Source: a virus
Virus record (IMG/VR): IMGVR_UViG_3300042563_001986
Location: 24,087 to 88,086 of that record
Length of the DNA stretch: 64,000 nt
Strand: one strand, 5' to 3'
Numbering within the stretch: the first letter of the stretch is position 1; the number at the start of each line of letters is the position of its first letter. Positions 6,001-60,239 of the stretch are shown here, in pieces. The position numbers were made by a program, and so were the translations under genes. The notes beneath the pieces were generated by a model. The model was not told the DNA's origin and ran no database searches. It saw nothing but the letters and a program-made list of their open reading frames with translations.

Positions 6001-6693
6001 ACCATCAGTACCCGAACTTCCACTAGTCCCTGAAGAGCCGTTAGTCCCTGAAGAGCCGTTAGTCCCTGAAGAGCCGTTAGTTCCTGAAGAACCACTACTA
6101 CCAGAAGAACCACTACTACCTGACGTACCCGATGTTCCTGATGAACCACTTTCACCCGAAGAACCCGATGAACCCGATGAACCGTTAGTTCCTGAAGAAC
6201 CGTTAGTTCCTGAAGAACCGTTAGTTCCTGAAGAACCACTACTACCAGAAGAACCACTTGAACCTGAACTTCCTGATGAACCACTTGAACCTGAACTTCC
6301 TGATGAACCACTTGTTCCACTAGAACCTGATATTCCTGAAGTACCACTTGAACCTGATGTTCCTTTAGTTCCTGAACTACCCGAAGAACCGCTACTTCCT
6401 GATGTTCCACTACTTCCTGAAGAACCACTTAAACCTGAAGTACCATTTTGACCACTTGAACCTGACGAACCATTAACACCACTTGTTCCTGATGAACCAT
6501 TAACACCACTTGTTCCTGCAGTACCTGAAGTACCAGCAAGGGATAGAGCATCCGCAATTTGTTGGATACTTGCTTTATATGATGAACCTGCGGGGTTTTG
6601 TGATGTATCACCCGTAATGACAATGTGTACAATGTCATCTGGAGATACTATCGGAGCTTGGGTTCTGTCGGTCAGTCTTTGATAATTCGGCAT
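1..6693 (-). CDS. Giant collagen-like (Gly-X-Y) fibre protein, C-terminus beyond the window
   Basis: The minus strand is open from an ATG at 6693 to the window edge: 2231 codons and no stop. About 50 N-terminal residues are non-repetitive (MPNYQRLTDR..., then ASIQQIADALSLAG). Almost everything after that is Gly-X-Y with X and Y mostly Thr, Ser or Asn, such as GTSGSSGTSG. Collagen-like triple-helical stalks are common in phage tail fibres; the non-repetitive N-terminus would attach to the virion and the missing C-terminus would carry the tip. From about residue 300 to 1560, G-T-D-G triplets and blocks like GLSGVDG recur; the distal part is almost pure Ser/Thr. A TATTTAT element lies 17 nt upstream. 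Collagen-like frame certain; fibre role inferred from the neighbouring adhesin-like genes. Confidence 0.9.
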   Translation of the reverse strand, partial: MPNYQRLTDRTQAPIVSPDDIVHIVITGDTSQNPAGSSYKASIQQIADALSLAGTSGTAGTSGVNGSSGTSGVNGSSGSSGQNGTSGLSGSSGSSGTSGSSGSSGSSGTKGTSGSSGTSGISGSSGTSGSSGSSGSSGSSGSSGSSGSSGSSGSSGTNGSSGTNGSSGTNGSSGSSGSSGESGSSGTSGTSGSSGSSGSSGSSGTNGSSGTNGSSGTNGSSGTSGSSGTDGSSGTSGTDGSSGTSGTDGSSGTSGSSGTSGIDGSSGTSGTDGSSGTSGADGSSGTSGSSGISGVNGSSGTSGISGTDGSSGTSGNSGSSGTSGTDGSSGTSGSSGTSGTNGSSGTSGTDGSSGTSGTDGSSGTSGIDGSSGTSGTDGSSGTDGSSGTSGTDGSSGTSGSSGTDGSSGTSGTDGSSGTSGTDGSSGTSGSSGTDGSSGTSGTDGSSGTSGSSGLSGVDGSSGTSGTDGSSGTDGSSGTSGTDGSSGTSGSSGTDGSSGTSGTDGSSGTSGSSGTSGSSGTSGTDGSSGTSGTDGSSGTSGTDGSSGTSGSSGISGVNGTNGTSGSSGTSGTDGSSGTSGSSGTDGSSGTSGTNGSSGTSGTDGSSGTSGTSGTDGSSGTSGTSGSSGLSGVDGSSGTSGTDGSSGTSGTDGSSGTSGTDGSSGTSGTSGTDGSSGTSGTSGSSGLSGVDGSSGTSGTDGSSGTSGSSGTSGTDGSSGTSGTDGSSGTSGTSGSSGSSGTSGTDGSSGTSGTDGSSGTSGSSGTDGSSGTSGSSGTSGSSGSGGSSGTSGTDGSSGTSGTDGSSGTSGTDGSSGTSGTDGSSGTSGSSGTDGSSGTSGTDGSSGTSGSSGLSGVDGSSGTSGTDGSSGTSGSSGTDGSSGTSGTSGTDGSSGTSGTSGTSGTDGSSGTSGSSGLSGVDGSSGTSGTDGSSGTDGSSGTSGSSGTSGSSGTDGSSGTSGTDGSSGTSGSSGSSGTSGTDGSSGTSGTDGSSGSSGISGVNGSSGTSGTNGSSGTSGSSGTDGSSGTSGSSGTSGTDGSSGTSGTDGSSGTSGTDGSSGTSGTDGSSGTSGTSGTDGSSGTSGTDGSSGTDGSSGTSGTDGSSGTSGTSGTDGSSGTSGTNGSSGTSGSSGLSGVDGSSGTSGTDGSSGTSGSSGTSGTDGSSGTSGTDGSSGTSGSSGTDGSSGTSGTSGTDGSSGTSGTSGTDGSSGTSGSSGTDGSSGSSGTSGTDGSSGTSGTSGTDGSSGTSGTDGSSGTSGTSGTDGSSGTSGTDGSSGTSGTDGSSGTSGTSGTDGSSGTSGTDGSSGTSGSSGLSGVDGSSGTSGIDGSSGTSGTSGTDGSSGTSGSSGSSGTSGSSGTSGTSGSSGLSGVDGSSGTSGTDGSSGTSGTDGSSGTSGTSGTDGSSGTSGTSGTDGSSGTSGTSGTDGSSGTSGTSGTDGSSGTDGSSGTSGTSGTDGSSGTSGTDGSSGTDGSSGTSGSSGISGVNGSSGTSGTSGSSGTSGSSGTSGSSGTSGSSGTSGSSGTSGSSGSSGSSGTSGSSGTSGTSGSSGSSGTSGSSGSSGTSGTDGSSGTSGSSGTSGSSGTSGSSGTSGSSGTSGTSGSSGSSGSSGTSGTSGSSGSSGSSGSSGSSGTAGTSGTSGSSGSSGTSGSSGTSGSSGTSGTSGSSGTSGTNGSSGTSGSSGSSGTSGTSGSSGTSGTSGSSGTSGSSGTSGSSGTSGSSGTNGSSGTSGTSGSSGTSGTSGSSGSSGSSGSSGTSGSSGTSGTSGSSGTSGTSGTSGTSGSSGTSGSSGTSGTSGSSGTSGTSGSSGSSGTNGSSGTSGSAGTSGTSGTSGTSGSSGTSGSSGSSGSSGSSGSSGTSGSSGSSGSSGTAGTSGSSGTSGSSGSSGTSGTSGSSGSSGSSGSSGTSGTSGSSGSSGTSGSSGTSGTSGSSGTSGTSGSSGTSGSSGTSGSSGSSGTSGTSGTSGSSGTSGSSGSSGSSGTSGSSGTSGSSGTSGTSGSSGSSGSSGSSGSSGTSGSSGTAGTSGSSGTSGTSGSSGSSGSSGSSGSSGTSGSSGSSGSSGSSGTAGTSGTSGSSGSSGSSGSSGTSGTSGSSGSSGSSGSSGSSGSSGTSGTSGSSGTAGTSGTSGSSGTSGSSGTSGSSGSSGSSGSSGSSGTAGTSGSSGTSGSSGSSGSSGSSGSSGTSGSSGSSGTSGSSGTAGTSGTSGSSGSSGTSGSSGTSGSSGTAGTSGSSGTSGTS

Positions 6694-32718: not shown

Positions 32719-32732
32719 GTCAATATTTTTAC

Positions 32733-37135: not shown

Positions 37136-37166
37136 GTTGTGGATTCAGTATATTTACTTATCTTTG
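37136..37166 (+). promoter_or_regulatory. Host-type promoter for the small RNA
   Basis: GTTG at 37136 and TATCTTTG at 37159-37166 with 19 nt between: the Bacteroidota -33/-7 pattern, with no open frame downstream. Confidence 0.7.
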
Positions 37167-37171
37167 TAATG

Positions 37172-37283
37172 TGGTTGAGGGAAACGATTCAGATACAACT
37201 AAATCAATCATAATGGTTAGGACGAAAACCTCCTAATTTGAACGGGATAGAAACGATTTAGATACTAAGTCCCGTTCTTTTTT
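37172..37283 (+). ncRNA. Putative small RNA with an internal direct repeat
   Basis: About 110 nt between a host-type promoter and an intrinsic terminator, with no coding potential. A 15-base element AAACGATTYAGATAC occurs twice, once near the 5' end and once as the loop of the terminator hairpin. A further hairpin TTAGGA/TCCTAA lies in the middle. Repeated single-stranded-looking elements suggest a protein- or RNA-binding site. No known family recognised. Confidence 0.6.
37241..37283 (+). terminator. Terminator of the small RNA
   Basis: AACGGGA pairs with TCCCGTT across an unusually long loop holding the second AAACGATTTAGATAC copy, followed by CTTTTTT. Confidence 0.75.
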
Positions 37284-37695
37284 AAATCCAAATAACAAAT
37301 TGGTCTTTACCAACTCTAAAAGATAAATCATACGATTCTCTAAAAACGGTAATTATAAGTAATTTCCAATAGGAGCCACCACCATGTTTTGGTACTATGA
37401 CCATAGCGATTTCTTTTTCTTTTGATTTAATAACAAATGCTACATCATCTTTAATCTCTCCTGTGGTAATTCCTTCCGCAATTTCTCGTCTACAACTCTC
37501 AATTATATATTTTAATTCACCGTTAGATATTTCTCTATCATTATAATCAGGAATATCAGTTCTGTTTTTTCTTTCATATGCGTGGGTAGTTCTATCAATC
37601 TCAAAACCAAAGGCAATTTCTATTTTGGCCATAATATGCCCAATTTTCTTTTCTAATAATAAATGTTCTTTGATTAATCTACGTAATTCGCTCAT
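37282..37695 (-). CDS. Hypothetical protein, 137 residues
   Basis: Begins MSELRRLIKEHLLLEKKIG; the body alternates strands and helices (FGFEIDRTTHAYERKN, VAFVIKSKEKEIAMVIVPK, YWKLLIITVFRES). Not recognised. The frame is open upstream from a TTG at 37719, but the TATTTAT element lies inside that extension, so I take the ATG at 37695. HLLLE near the N-terminus could be a prohead-protease site. Confidence 0.7.
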   Translation of the reverse strand: MSELRRLIKEHLLLEKKIGHIMAKIEIAFGFEIDRTTHAYERKNRTDIPDYNDREISNGELKYIIESCRREIAEGITTGEIKDDVAFVIKSKEKEIAMVIVPKHGGGSYWKLLIITVFRESYDLSFRVGKDQFVIWI

Positions 37696-53689: not shown

Positions 53690-55732
53690 ATGATAGAATC
53701 CATGGATAATGGGGGAAAGAATAACCCACCTAAATCAACATCTGACTCATCAACACCTGTGTTGGATAACTTCAGCCGAGATTTAATCAAATTGGCCGAA
53801 CAAGGTAAATTAGACCCTGTTGTTGGTAGAGAAAGAGAAATTACAAGGATTGCTCAAATCCTTTCTCGTAGAAAGAAAAATAACCCTATTATTATTGGTG
53901 AACCTGGTTGTGGTAAAACCGCAATCGTAGAAGGATTAGCAATTAAAATTTTTAACGGTGAATGTCCAAGAAATTTAATGGATAAAAGAATTGTTTCGTT
54001 AGACATGACATCGATTGTTGCGGGTACAAAATACCGTGGTCAGTTTGAGGAACGTATGAAAGTAATTATCGAGGAGTTACAAAACGCACCAAATATCATT
54101 GTCTTTATTGACGAAATTCACACAATAGTTGGTGCAGGTAATTCATCAGGTTCGTTAGACGCATCAAACATCTTCAAACCAGCACTTGCCCGTGGAGAAA
54201 TTCAATGTGTTGGTGCAACAACTCTTGATGAGTATCGTAAGAACTTTGAGAAAGACGGAGCATTAGAAAGACGTTTTCAAAAGGTAATTGTTGACGCGGC
54301 GACTAAAGAAGAGACTTTGGAGATTCTTAAGAATGTTAAAGATAAATACGAATCATTCCACAAGGTATCTTATACTGATGAAATACTTTCAGTATGTGTT
54401 GATTTGGCGGCAAGATATATCACCGACAGAGAGTTTCCTGATAAGGCATTCGACATTATTGATGAGGTAGGTGCGAGATGTCAAGTTGAGATTAAAATGC
54501 CTGACATTATTGAAAAATTAAAACAAGAAGCTGCCGACGTTAAAATTGAAAAACTTGAGGTTGTTAAAAAACAAAATTACGAAGAGGCGGCAAATCTACG
54601 TGACAAGGAAAAACGTATTCTCAATAAATTAGATATTGAGAAGAAAAAATTTGAGGAGGAACTTCAGATTAAGAAAAAAGAAGTTTCTATCGAATTGGTT
54701 TATGAGGTCGTTTCAAACATGACTAAAATTCCTATTAGTAAATTGAATGCTAATGAGACGATGTTACTATCTCAATTAGAGGGTAGTTTATCTGACAAAG
54801 TAATTGGCCAATCTGAAGCGGTTATGAAAATTGCTAAGTCAATCAGACGAAACAGATTAGGTATTAAAGACCCTAATAAACCAATTGGTTCATTTATTTT
54901 CCTTGGTTCAACAGGTGTAGGTAAAACTTACTTAGCAAAACAATTGGCAAAACAAATGTTTGGTAGTGAGGAGAATATGATTCGTGTGGACATGTCTGAA
55001 TACCAAGAAAAACATAGTATCTCAAGATTAATTGGAGCCCCTCCAGGATATGTAGGTTATGACGAAGGTGGTCAATTAACTGAACAAGTTAAAAACAAAC
55101 CTTACTCAGTAATTTTATTTGATGAGATTGAAAAGGCAAACAAAGACATATTTTCAACATTATTACAAGTGTTGGATGACGGTCACCTTACAGATGGTAT
55201 GGGAAGAAAAATTAACTTCAAAAACTGTGTCATTATCATGACATCAAACGTTGGAGTTAAAAAACTACAGGAGTTTGGTGCGGGTGTAGGATTTAAAACT
55301 AACTCGAGTTCTTACGTTGAAGAAGAACAAAAAAGAGAAGTTTTGAAGAAGGAACTTAAGAAGTTTTTCGCCCCTGAATTTTTAAACCGTATTGATGAGG
55401 TTATTATTTTTAATTCACTAGTGAAAGAAGATGTTAAAAAAATTGTTAAGCTTGAGTTGAGTATTTTATCTGAAAGATTGACAGGTCTTAAATATAATAT
55501 TAAATTTGACGATTCTATTTTAGATATGATTTCTGAGGTTGGGTTTGATGAAATGTATGGTGCTCGTCCATTGAAAAGAGCTATTCAGGATAAAGTTGAA
55601 GATTTTATATCTGAAGAGGTTCTTAAGAGTAACATTCAAGAGAATACTGAGTACACGTTAATAAGTGAAAATGGTGATGTTAAGTTTAAAGAGGAAAAGA
55701 AAGTCACAAGAAAAAGAAAAGGGGTTGAATAA
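53690..55732 (+). CDS. ClpC/ClpA-type AAA+ unfoldase without the N-terminal Clp-N domain
   Basis: 680 residues with two AAA+ modules. First: PVVGREREITRIAQILSRR, Walker A GEPGCGKTAIVEGLA, Walker B VFIDEIHTIVGAG, arginine finger GALERRFQ. Middle: a short UVR-like coiled coil (KLEVVKKQNYEEAANLRDKE). Second: Walker A LGSTGVGKTYLAKQLA, Walker B ILFDEIEKA, then FLNRIDEVIIF and GARPLKRAIQDKVED. FGAGVGFKTNSSS carries a VGF tripeptide where ClpC has its ClpP-docking loop, so it may feed host ClpP. Clp-N domains are missing. Host-type promoter, own terminator. Confidence 0.92.
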   Translation: MIESMDNGGKNNPPKSTSDSSTPVLDNFSRDLIKLAEQGKLDPVVGREREITRIAQILSRRKKNNPIIIGEPGCGKTAIVEGLAIKIFNGECPRNLMDKRIVSLDMTSIVAGTKYRGQFEERMKVIIEELQNAPNIIVFIDEIHTIVGAGNSSGSLDASNIFKPALARGEIQCVGATTLDEYRKNFEKDGALERRFQKVIVDAATKEETLEILKNVKDKYESFHKVSYTDEILSVCVDLAARYITDREFPDKAFDIIDEVGARCQVEIKMPDIIEKLKQEAADVKIEKLEVVKKQNYEEAANLRDKEKRILNKLDIEKKKFEEELQIKKKEVSIELVYEVVSNMTKIPISKLNANETMLLSQLEGSLSDKVIGQSEAVMKIAKSIRRNRLGIKDPNKPIGSFIFLGSTGVGKTYLAKQLAKQMFGSEENMIRVDMSEYQEKHSISRLIGAPPGYVGYDEGGQLTEQVKNKPYSVILFDEIEKANKDIFSTLLQVLDDGHLTDGMGRKINFKNCVIIMTSNVGVKKLQEFGAGVGFKTNSSSYVEEEQKREVLKKELKKFFAPEFLNRIDEVIIFNSLVKEDVKKIVKLELSILSERLTGLKYNIKFDDSILDMISEVGFDEMYGARPLKRAIQDKVEDFISEEVLKSNIQENTEYTLISENGDVKFKEEKKVTRKRKGVE

Positions 55733-58039: not shown

Positions 58040-58070
58040 TTTGGTAATTGGTAAAACTTTACTATCTTTG
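58040..58070 (+). promoter_or_regulatory. Host-type promoter for the tmRNA
   Basis: TTTG at 58040-58043, 19 nt, then TATCTTTG at 58063-58070: a near-perfect Bacteroidota -33/-7 promoter. Confidence 0.85.
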
Positions 58071-58082
58071 TAAAAGAAATAA

Positions 58083-58093
58083 GTTCTTTAACA
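58083..58093 (+). promoter_or_regulatory. boxA-like antitermination element in the tmRNA leader
   Basis: GTTCTTTAACA just upstream of the mature 5' end resembles the boxA of rRNA leaders, which binds NusB-S10. The same element, with one change, occurs in the giant RNA leader. Confidence 0.6.
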
Positions 58094-58096
58094 TAT

Positions 58097-58482
58097 GGGG
58101 GTAACTTGGAATTGACTGGCATTGTTAGTTATTCGGGGCACGCAGTGAGATGTATCCTATCACTTAAATCTACGGATGTAAACTGTAAACGGAAACGTTT
58201 TAGACAAAATGGCGACCATCGGATTAATCCGTGAAGAAGCTGCGGTTGTTGCCTAACATATAGGAAACACCATACGGGTCGGTGGACATACAACCTAGGA
58301 ACAGAAGTCTATACAAAGGTGGAAAAATGACTGAACCCAAAATCGAGTCATCCATTGGTTGTTAGTTTACGATGGTGAAGAACGAACTAACTATTTTTGG
58401 AACATTAGAAAATGTTATCCTAAGCGTGTAGTCCTTAATAGGTAAGGTGTACAACACGAGGGTTCGAACCCCTCTACCTCCA
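58097..58482 (+). ncRNA. ssrA: Transfer-messenger RNA (tmRNA)
   Basis: 386 nt. The 5' end GGGGGTAACTTGGAATTGAC pairs with TACCTCC at 58475-58481 as a 7-bp acceptor stem with one G-U, and A at 58482 is the discriminator; CCA is not encoded. A T-arm is present: GAGGG-TTCGAAC-CCCTC at 58458-58474. A reading frame for the proteolysis tag ends at TAA 58254-58256. With resume codon AAA (58206), placed by analogy to the TTTAG(A/T)C context, the tag ends IREEAAVVA. It rescues stalled ribosomes and marks products for proteolysis. Promoter, boxA leader and terminator are all present. Confidence 0.93.
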
Positions 58483-58489
58483 CTCATTA

Positions 58490-58517
58490 AACCTCATCTT
58501 CGGATGGGGTTTTTTTA
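58490..58517 (+). terminator. Intrinsic terminator of the tmRNA
   Basis: CCTCATC-TTCG-GATGGGG hairpin followed by TTTTTTT. Confidence 0.88.
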
Positions 58518-58567
58518 TGCGTTAAAATTATAGATTAGTGTTGTATGATTATTATATTTTAGTGCAT

Positions 58568-58602
58568 AAAAAAAGGGAATAACATCGTCATGTTATTCCC
58601 GT
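58568..58602 (-). terminator. Terminator of the giant RNA
   Basis: Minus-strand GGGAATAACAT-GACG-ATGTTATTCCC, an 11-bp perfect stem, followed by TTTTTTT. Confidence 0.93.
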
Positions 58603-59866
58603 TGGGCTTTTTACTCAGTGGTACAACCTTAACCACTCCATCAGTTTGTGACACCGAATGGGACCTTCTATCGTGAGGTGAATATCCGCGACCTAAACGT
58701 CTATGTTTTTTGGTTTTTTACTTATTTAGACACCTATAAAAAACCTGTGGTTATCACAAAAATCCACAACCTAAGAATATCGGTGTTGACGTTTTTTATC
58801 TTTTAGCGAAGATGTCTTGTCTTGACACAAACACACTAGTTTTTTGTATTTATCAATCAGAGCAGATAAAGGTTGTAACATAGTATAAAACCAAAAACAC
58901 ACACTCTATGGGACTTTTTTAAGGGAAAGTTTAAACTCATTACCTTGAGGAATATACCGTAATTACCTCTTTTCTCTGTATTGGAGTCACTGTTTTCATA
59001 GTTTTGGTTGGCTAAAGGCTGAGAATACACCGTTTTGTGAGAATCTTTAGAAGGATTATTTGGTTCCCTTCATTTCCACCATCTTTTGAATGGTAACTCT
59101 CATCGCCGATTGGTTAGACCAATCACTCCTTAAGGTTTTAACTACTCTATTACTACTCTACTCTCTTCAATCTTGCGAACTGACTCAGGATTCGACTCCT
59201 TGGAGGTTTTTGGTAACAATATACATCGACTTGCGGTCTCAGTATGCCATGAACAACTCATGACTATGTAGGCGACTTTCATCAAAACCTGACGAACACT
59301 TTTGCTTATATGTCTTTTAGTTTTACTTAAATTTAGTATAAGTTTTGTGTTGTGGATGATTCCAAGTAGAGGTCCGTCTTAAGCCTCGTTATCTTTTGAA
59401 CAACAAGATACTTGTCTACTCGGTAGAGTGTCCCCACTCTCATATTTTAAGATTACTTCGTACCAAGACCTTGGTGGGTCTGTGGTAAGGATAGTAGCGA
59501 CACCATTCGTTCTCTATCTTACCTTCAGGTTAATCCCTTCGGTTTTAAGTCACCTCTTATATTGGAACCCGCAATTGTGTATTTGGAGTACACTTCTCAC
59601 TTGATTCCTATGGGTTATTCTTATTGGTGTTCCCACCTCAAACTGACAATCCACATTGCCCGTTCAGTTTTCCATTTCCCTACGAAGTTATCCTCGGTAC
59701 TACAGGCTCACTGATATCCCACTTGTATACTCGAGTTCGGTTACCCGAACCGCAAAACCATTAACACTTATGATTTCACTTTATCCCCCTTTCGAGGTTT
59801 ATTTAACGACCATATACGGCCGATTATCGTTTATACAACACCGAAGTGTTATAATGGATAATAATA

Positions 59867-59877
59867 TGTCAAAGAAC
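59867..59877 (-). promoter_or_regulatory. boxA-like element in the giant RNA leader
   Basis: Minus-strand GTTCTTTGACA about 25 nt into the transcript; matches the tmRNA leader (GAAGTTCTTTGACATAT versus TAAGTTCTTTAACATAT). Confidence 0.6.
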
Positions 59878-59904
59878 TTCTTCGGACGTTTCCGATTTGT
59901 TTTA

Positions 59905-59936
59905 CAAAGGTAGGTAAACTTTTTTGATTTACCAAA
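59905..59936 (-). promoter_or_regulatory. Proximal promoter of the giant RNA
   Basis: Minus-strand TTTG (59936-59933), 20 nt, TACCTTTG (59912-59905); start expected near 59900. Confidence 0.8.
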
Positions 59937-59995
59937 TCTTTTTTTATTTTTTTTAGAGATTTGTATCTGAATCGTTGTCTATCTCTTTTGTTGTA

Positions 59996-60027
59996 CAAAG
60001 GTAGGTAAAGTTTTTCGATTTACCAAA
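59996..60027 (-). promoter_or_regulatory. Middle promoter of the giant RNA
   Basis: Minus-strand TTTG (60027-60024), 20 nt, TACCTTTG (60003-59996). Confidence 0.78.
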
Positions 60028-60106
60028 TCTTTTTTTTGTTTTTTTTTTCAGTCTTAGGAAACCACGATTTTATAACAGATTGTCAACCTAACCCCGAATT
60101 GTTTTA

Positions 60107-60137
60107 CAAAGATAATAAAAAAAACTGTTCTGACAAT
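60107..60137 (-). promoter_or_regulatory. Distal promoter of the giant RNA
   Basis: Minus-strand ATTG (60137-60134), 19 nt, TATCTTTG (60114-60107); the following TAAAACAA matches the start region of the proximal promoter. Confidence 0.65.
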
Positions 60138-60239
60138 ACCTAAACAGTATATTTTTTTATTTTTTATATAAATATTGTACTTTGTTAAGAAAATCTGAAT
60201 TATTTTAAAGTATAAGTTGATTTTACGTCAACAATCACC

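Follow-up and report, generated by a model that had tools for sequence, protein, structure and literature searches.

The large RNAs most similar to the one described here are those of the GOLLD family. In the parts of PMC12286853 drawn on here, the 3' region of GOLLD is described as universally conserved and the 5' region as less so, with many members longer than 800 nt. One member, env-38, is an 833-nt RNA for which cryo-EM revealed a 14-mer cage enclosing a disordered linker. ROOL, a further large phage RNA found near tRNA genes, is likewise described as cage-forming in these parts of the paper. The excerpted text of PMC7567579 reports that the GOLLD RNA of one prophage accumulated in lytic infection and was dispensable for phage production, and that of PMC6582537 reports expression of GOLLD within a tRNA cluster of a mycobacterium. 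Neither a 3' RNA module nor a phage tmRNA beside GOLLD is mentioned in the portions of PMC12286853, PMC6582537, PMC7567579, and PMC10383478 covered here.

The locus compared with these systems lies in a 64-kb stretch (64,000 nt; hereafter the window) of an 88-kb virus record, with genes for a major head protein, a portal, and a terminase. Searched against the phage collection, these genes are best matched by LR756508, Microcystis phage Mel-JY01, and Flavobacterium phage vB_FspM_immuto (27% identity in the terminase and 41% in the head protein for the last), and many T4-like phages are among the next matches. Positions 58568-59900 (minus strand) had been described in an initial annotation as one non-coding RNA of roughly 1.3 kb. 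The absence of coding content is upheld, with 23, 36, and 31 stop codons in the three minus frames and longest open runs of 78, 50, and 44 codons. The upstream part of the region contains the following features:

60027-59996 (-): Bacteroidota-type promoter, distal copy, TTTG-N20-TACCTTTG, from a motif scan
59936-59905 (-): Bacteroidota-type promoter, proximal copy, TTTG-N20-TANNTTTG, from a motif scan; the transcript would start at approximately 59895
59878-59864 (-): boxA-like leader AGTTCTTTGACATAT, by sequence likeness
59895-59424 (-): putative GOLLD 5' domain, by nhmmer homology and UUCG/GNRA hairpins
59423-59016 (-): GOLLD 3' domain, complete Rfam RF02032 model (positions 1-416)

The Rfam covariance-model search that the initial annotation had proposed returned GOLLD for 59423-59016 at 326.8 bits (gathering cut-off 150, E 7.3e-93). 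Because the whole RF02032 model is matched, the GOLLD-type identity is correct: this stretch is a member of the known GOLLD family, in keeping with the large structured phage RNA of GOLLD/ROOL kind that had been suggested, but at more than twice the cut-off it is not the "divergent" member envisaged. Neither ROOL nor rRNA was matched at gathering scores in Rfam, the latter in agreement with the earlier statement that no rRNA landmark is visible. The other option then offered, a new large RNA family spanning the whole 1.3 kb, could appeal to the Rfam model covering 408 of 1333 nt; it is already refuted for 59423-59016 by the full-length match, and a conserved 3' region joined to a less conserved 5' region, with many members above 800 nt, is the very layout given for GOLLD in the cited parts of PMC12286853, so that we consider this option extremely improbable.

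Homology to the putative 5' domain was found by nhmmer upstream of the GOLLD 3' domain in many GOLLD loci, among the matches listed. Given the Bacteroidota-type promoters upstream, GOLLD proper is about 880 nt in length (approximately 59895-59014). The predicted fold of 59016-59895 has a z-score of -4.15, with 0 of 20 shuffles equally low. Four of the five perfect tetraloop hairpins that had been reported were borne out, while the fifth, CCUC-GAAA-GGGG, contains a G-U pair. These four UUCG- or GNRA-capped hairpins with at least four Watson-Crick pairs (at 59850, 59750, 59637, and 59440) compare with an expected 0.29, a count that is matched by 0 of 1000 dinucleotide shuffles; among 96 equal-length slices of the window, only 58669-60001 (minus), which lies over the annotated region, reaches four.

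Like env-38, the window RNA is phage-borne and has a complete 3' domain together with what would be a long 5' domain. Relatives have a tRNA-Met as neighbour, and env-38 is also placed beside a tRNA-Met, with GOLLD downstream of it, in the parts of PMC12286853 used here. The window differs from env-38 in having a convergent tmRNA in place of the tRNA and in that some 450 nt of additional RNA follow the point at which the GOLLD model ends. GOLLD RNAs are phage-borne and often near tRNA genes; phage genes and an adjoining tmRNA are present here, though ARAGORN identified no tRNA in the 64-kb window. BLASTN produced matches only to LR756502 and LR745206, both of which carry GOLLD. For wider comparison, loci were chosen by sequence patterns, including two for GOLLD, and GOLLD was detected in 165 of 257 among the matches listed; this limit applies to all of the locus counts, which are not frequencies in nature because the loci were pattern-selected. 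The first GOLLD pattern was short, and 73 of the 224 loci collected early showed no GOLLD among the matches listed.

Three minus-strand promoters had been proposed. Two Bacteroidota-type sites were found, TTTG-N20-TANNTTTG being the Bacteroidota promoter consensus. A third TATCTTTG, near 60110, is incomplete, having no upstream promoter half, and promoters of the sigma-70 type are at chance level (4 on both strands versus 5.6 expected). The same Bacteroidota promoter type is found upstream of GOLLD in 43 of 67 cluster representatives, as compared to 4/61, 3/62, 9/64, and 2/58 in control stretches. A longer motif defined from the window's own GOLLD and tmRNA promoters, TTTAC-N0-2-A(C/T)CTTTG, has 7 sites in the window versus 0.18 expected under a Markov model: two before GOLLD, one before the tmRNA, one before a ClpC-like gene (53690), and the others at 32728, 37153, and 56643. 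Since both the promoter type and the relatives of this phage point to Bacteroidota, its host probably belongs there. The boxA element reported earlier was recovered as AGTTCTTTGACATAT in the GOLLD leader, and a boxA-like AGTTCTTTAACATAT is located in the tmRNA leader at 58084 (+). As a general feature of GOLLD, boxA is not supported (5/67 cluster representatives versus 0-2 in control stretches).

The Rfam GOLLD model stops at 59016, and the next minus-strand terminator lies approximately 450 nt farther on. Its 11-bp stem is present as annotated and is the only minus-strand terminator-like site within 58480-60200. The single RNA of approximately 1.3 kb initially described is thus correct as regards GOLLD, but its last ~430 nt had not been separated; they constitute another structured RNA, which the GOLLD model does not cover. 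This 3' part, referred to as the tail, has the following features:

59015-58997 (-): junction; site of a tRNA-Met(CAU) in many other tail loci, none here (ARAGORN, locus comparison)
58996-58568 (-): tail, GOLLD-linked structured RNA of ~430 nt (conservation, covariation)
58769-58746 (-): tail hairpin GUGG...CCAC, 4 of 5 pairs invariant
58679-58663 (-): tail hairpin P0, whose loop contains ACGAUAG; 2 of 4 pairs changed on both sides
58661-58638 (-): tail hairpin H1, whose loop reads UCACAAA (in many tails UCACUAA); all 7 pairs changed on both sides
58637-58617 (-): tail hairpin H2, 1 of 4 pairs changed on both sides
58600-58575 (-): terminator stem, 11 bp, 6 of 7 pairs changed on both sides

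On comparative sequence evidence, the tail is a conserved, covarying structured RNA separate from the GOLLD model. In a sequence-only alignment of 11 distinct tail 3' parts (P0, H1, H2, and the terminator stem), 82.0% of cells are paired and 16 of 22 pairs are changed on both sides, so the stems do covary, the opposite of what the initial annotation had said would count against a structured RNA. The covariation score is 0.479 versus 0.233 for shuffled alignments, with 0 of 500 shuffles reaching these values and slid versions scoring no higher than 0.268. Further pair types are not in excess (26 versus 25.2 in shuffles). A model-fitted alignment of 15 distinct rows scores 0.685, a value biased toward structure by construction. 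For the GUGG...CCAC hairpin there is little covariation support because four of its five pairs never vary. In the window, the H1 stem requires a bulge and the H2 stem is one column out of register in the alignment. Most indels between the window tail and its homologues have lengths not divisible by three (11 of 15 in the comparison with locus L178, for example).

Folding predictions are more mixed. RNAalifold applied to the tail in full yields only a weak consensus structure (-15.9 kcal/mol), with 16 of 41 pairs changed on both sides and helices that are partly different. For the H1-H2 stretch, none of 6 sequences folds better on its own than its shuffles do; the best folds include H1 in 4 of the 6 and the proposed H2 in 3. 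The single-sequence fold of the whole window tail has a z-score of -2.51, with 2 of 100 shuffles as low. Many tails outside the types of the window and of L074 have an H-type pseudoknot in the terminator, in which 5 bp (GGCUA/UAGCC) cross the terminator stem; L234 has the variant GGUUA/UAACC. A scan of 257 loci plus the window, restricted to stems starting GG(C/T)(C/T)A, detected 23 sites, which represent 9 distinct versions of the sequence and without exception belong to tail loci. Support for this pseudoknot is modest because compensatory change is seen in only one lineage, and the pseudoknot is missing from the window tail.

The window tail has no match at E 1 or below among the 4227 families of Rfam 15, which presumably include ROOL, OLE, and HEARO. 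The best Rfam match of the L237 tail has an E of 0.52, far below gathering scores, and that of L162 is RefA9, which lies on the strand opposite to the terminator and, at 27.6 bits of 49 (E 0.054), is also far below gathering. BLASTN of the tail in named phages gave only matches of at most 41 nt (E at least 2) in 8 records. Tail homologues were identified 3' of GOLLD in 26 of 231 loci, window included, with the alignment beginning 54-166 nt past the GOLLD end, and the tail lineages are mutually 51-63% identical. A hairpin pattern added 8 tail loci: 32 of the 48 stretches with this pattern have the tail, and the other 16 have neither tail nor GOLLD. One of the 32, L254, contains only the last bases of GOLLD in its DNA, by eye.

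Presence of the tail varies even among close relatives. L031, a member of the same 95% GOLLD cluster as the window, has none, its GOLLD end being 142 nt from the tmRNA as compared to 533 nt in the window's type; given this absence, the tail is dispensable. On a GOLLD tree of 70 representatives, 4 gains or losses of the tail are needed versus 8.6 for shuffled labels, and 2 of the 4 are forced by well-supported branches. Such variability would suit a tail that has no function of its own and merely forms a changeable 3' end, with terminator, for the GOLLD transcript, with covarying stems that stabilise the 3' end and end transcription, as would the fact that all of the aligned tails extend to a T-rich terminator. 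However, 430 nt with covarying hairpins and conserved loops far exceeds what a terminator needs, and at several other GOLLD loci a terminator-like sequence already follows shortly after GOLLD, making this explanation unlikely.

A scan of all IMG/VR with the tail pattern returned 25 stretches, and 25 of 25 lie just 3' of a GOLLD. A covariance model built from 11 tails added matches in L162 (39.0 bits, E 5e-5) and L173 (E 0.025) and recovered L182 and L210, which had been weak before (E 0.014); all four lie downstream of a GOLLD. Across 91 loci that lack GOLLD, no match of this model had an E below 0.9. It also matched L202 across the GOLLD 3' end (E 0.016), probably by chance, and other places at E 0.16 or above. 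A scan of genome contigs gave two matches; these are probably chance because neither is accompanied by GOLLD or by a model-detected tail. By eye, L144 and L204 appear to have more diverged tails after a tRNA-Met-like sequence, with a GUGAC start and a AUAACCAC or AUACCAC hairpin; the covariance model gave no match in either, and both were left out of the tail counts.

In 21 of 37 tail loci, ARAGORN identified a tRNA-Met(CAU) that starts 12-20 nt past the end of GOLLD. The 16 without one are 12 loci of the window's and L074's types, L162, L173, L140, and L246; tRNA-like sequence is visible in the last two, and the L140 stretch is identical to that of L163. The tail could be a separate trans-acting or regulatory RNA that shares the GOLLD transcript, co-location reflecting a tRNA/ncRNA island rather than joint action: processing of the intervening tRNA would part the two, and other GOLLD loci have tRNAs or other sequence at the same place. 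Set against this are the 25 of 25 pattern matches beside GOLLD and the failure of the model to detect a tail in the 91 loci without GOLLD, though tails unlike the pattern would escape. We view a separate RNA as a serious, if somewhat doubtful, possibility. Two further observations concern RNA genes at GOLLD loci: just 3' of GOLLD in L003 (the 635-kb phage record LR745206) are tRNA-like genes with, by eye, an apparent insert near the D loop, and a GOLLD- and tRNA-rich phage locus, L085, has a group I intron at 6002-6189 (+) (RF00028, 61.3 bits).

We favour, with good confidence, a phage GOLLD nanocage RNA whose transcript carries on into a second folded module, the tail, as an accessory RNA domain. 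The tandem TTTG/TANNTTTG promoters would drive the GOLLD gene, and the ~880-nt GOLLD would fold and self-assemble into a 14-mer cage as for env-38, a step suggested by its family membership. No phage-type promoter was found between GOLLD and the tail, and the transcript would read through into the ~430-nt tail and stop at the terminator (58575), for a total of ~1.33 kb. Where a tRNA-Met lies between the two modules, as in many relatives, cleavage by RNase P and the tRNA 3'-processing nuclease would part GOLLD from the tail, which would therefore be an RNA in its own right, produced in parallel with GOLLD. Because the window's lineage lacks the intervening tRNA, GOLLD and the tail are probably one molecule there; the tail would stay on the GOLLD 3' end and may be carried by every subunit of the cage, either as cargo on a tether or as an arm on the outside.

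Downstream of the tail, the tmRNA neighbour noted in the initial annotation is confirmed by Rfam, having been missed by ARAGORN:

58097-58485 (+): tmRNA, convergent neighbour (RF00023, 65.9 bits)

Its promoter (58040-58070) is of the same type as that of GOLLD, and it resembles GOLLD further in being an adjacent stable structured RNA; it differs in being a separate gene on the other strand, and the tail matches no tmRNA model. A tmRNA is present within 2.5 kb of GOLLD in 21 of 57 clusters (opposite in strand to GOLLD in 15, on GOLLD's own strand in 6), versus 1 of 92 loci counted as lacking GOLLD (L254, whose DNA begins in the GOLLD last bases), these controls not being host-matched. The window tmRNA appears to encode a long unusual tag, LDKMATIGLIREEAAVVA, followed by a stop. 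The tag frame is kept in 32 of 73 tmRNA profile matches, window included, as 11 peptides with the pattern KM...GL....VA; the remaining 41 have other readings or none. The usual tmRNA tag end, -LAA, is absent from these peptides. The ClpC-like gene, behind the promoter motif common to the tmRNA and GOLLD, encodes an AAA+ unfoldase at 53690-55732 (+) (phrog_4871, E 1.6e-237; Pfam AAA_2 and ClpB_D2-small), in which a GVGF motif resembles a ClpP-binding loop. A candidate small RNA is located at approximately 37165-37285 (+), following the motif site at 37153, with no plus-strand ORF of 40 aa and with a terminator-like hairpin at its end. The tmRNA neighbour and the promoter type shared with the ClpC-like gene hint, speculatively, at a link to translation and ribosome rescue in the infected cell.

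The main part of this RNA, GOLLD, was already known; the unexpected addition is a GOLLD-linked structured RNA without an Rfam 15 match in these searches. Whether the tail is a new structured RNA family partnering GOLLD seems to us evenly balanced: it would be characterized by three conserved-loop hairpins and, in many lineages, a terminator pseudoknot, would be either tRNA-released or cage-fused, and might serve as cargo, cap, or arm. According to the parts of PMC12286853 cited here, neither the contents nor the function of GOLLD cages is known. So far found only beside GOLLD, sometimes behind a tRNA that would free it and sometimes directly joined, the tail is a concrete candidate with which to test this.
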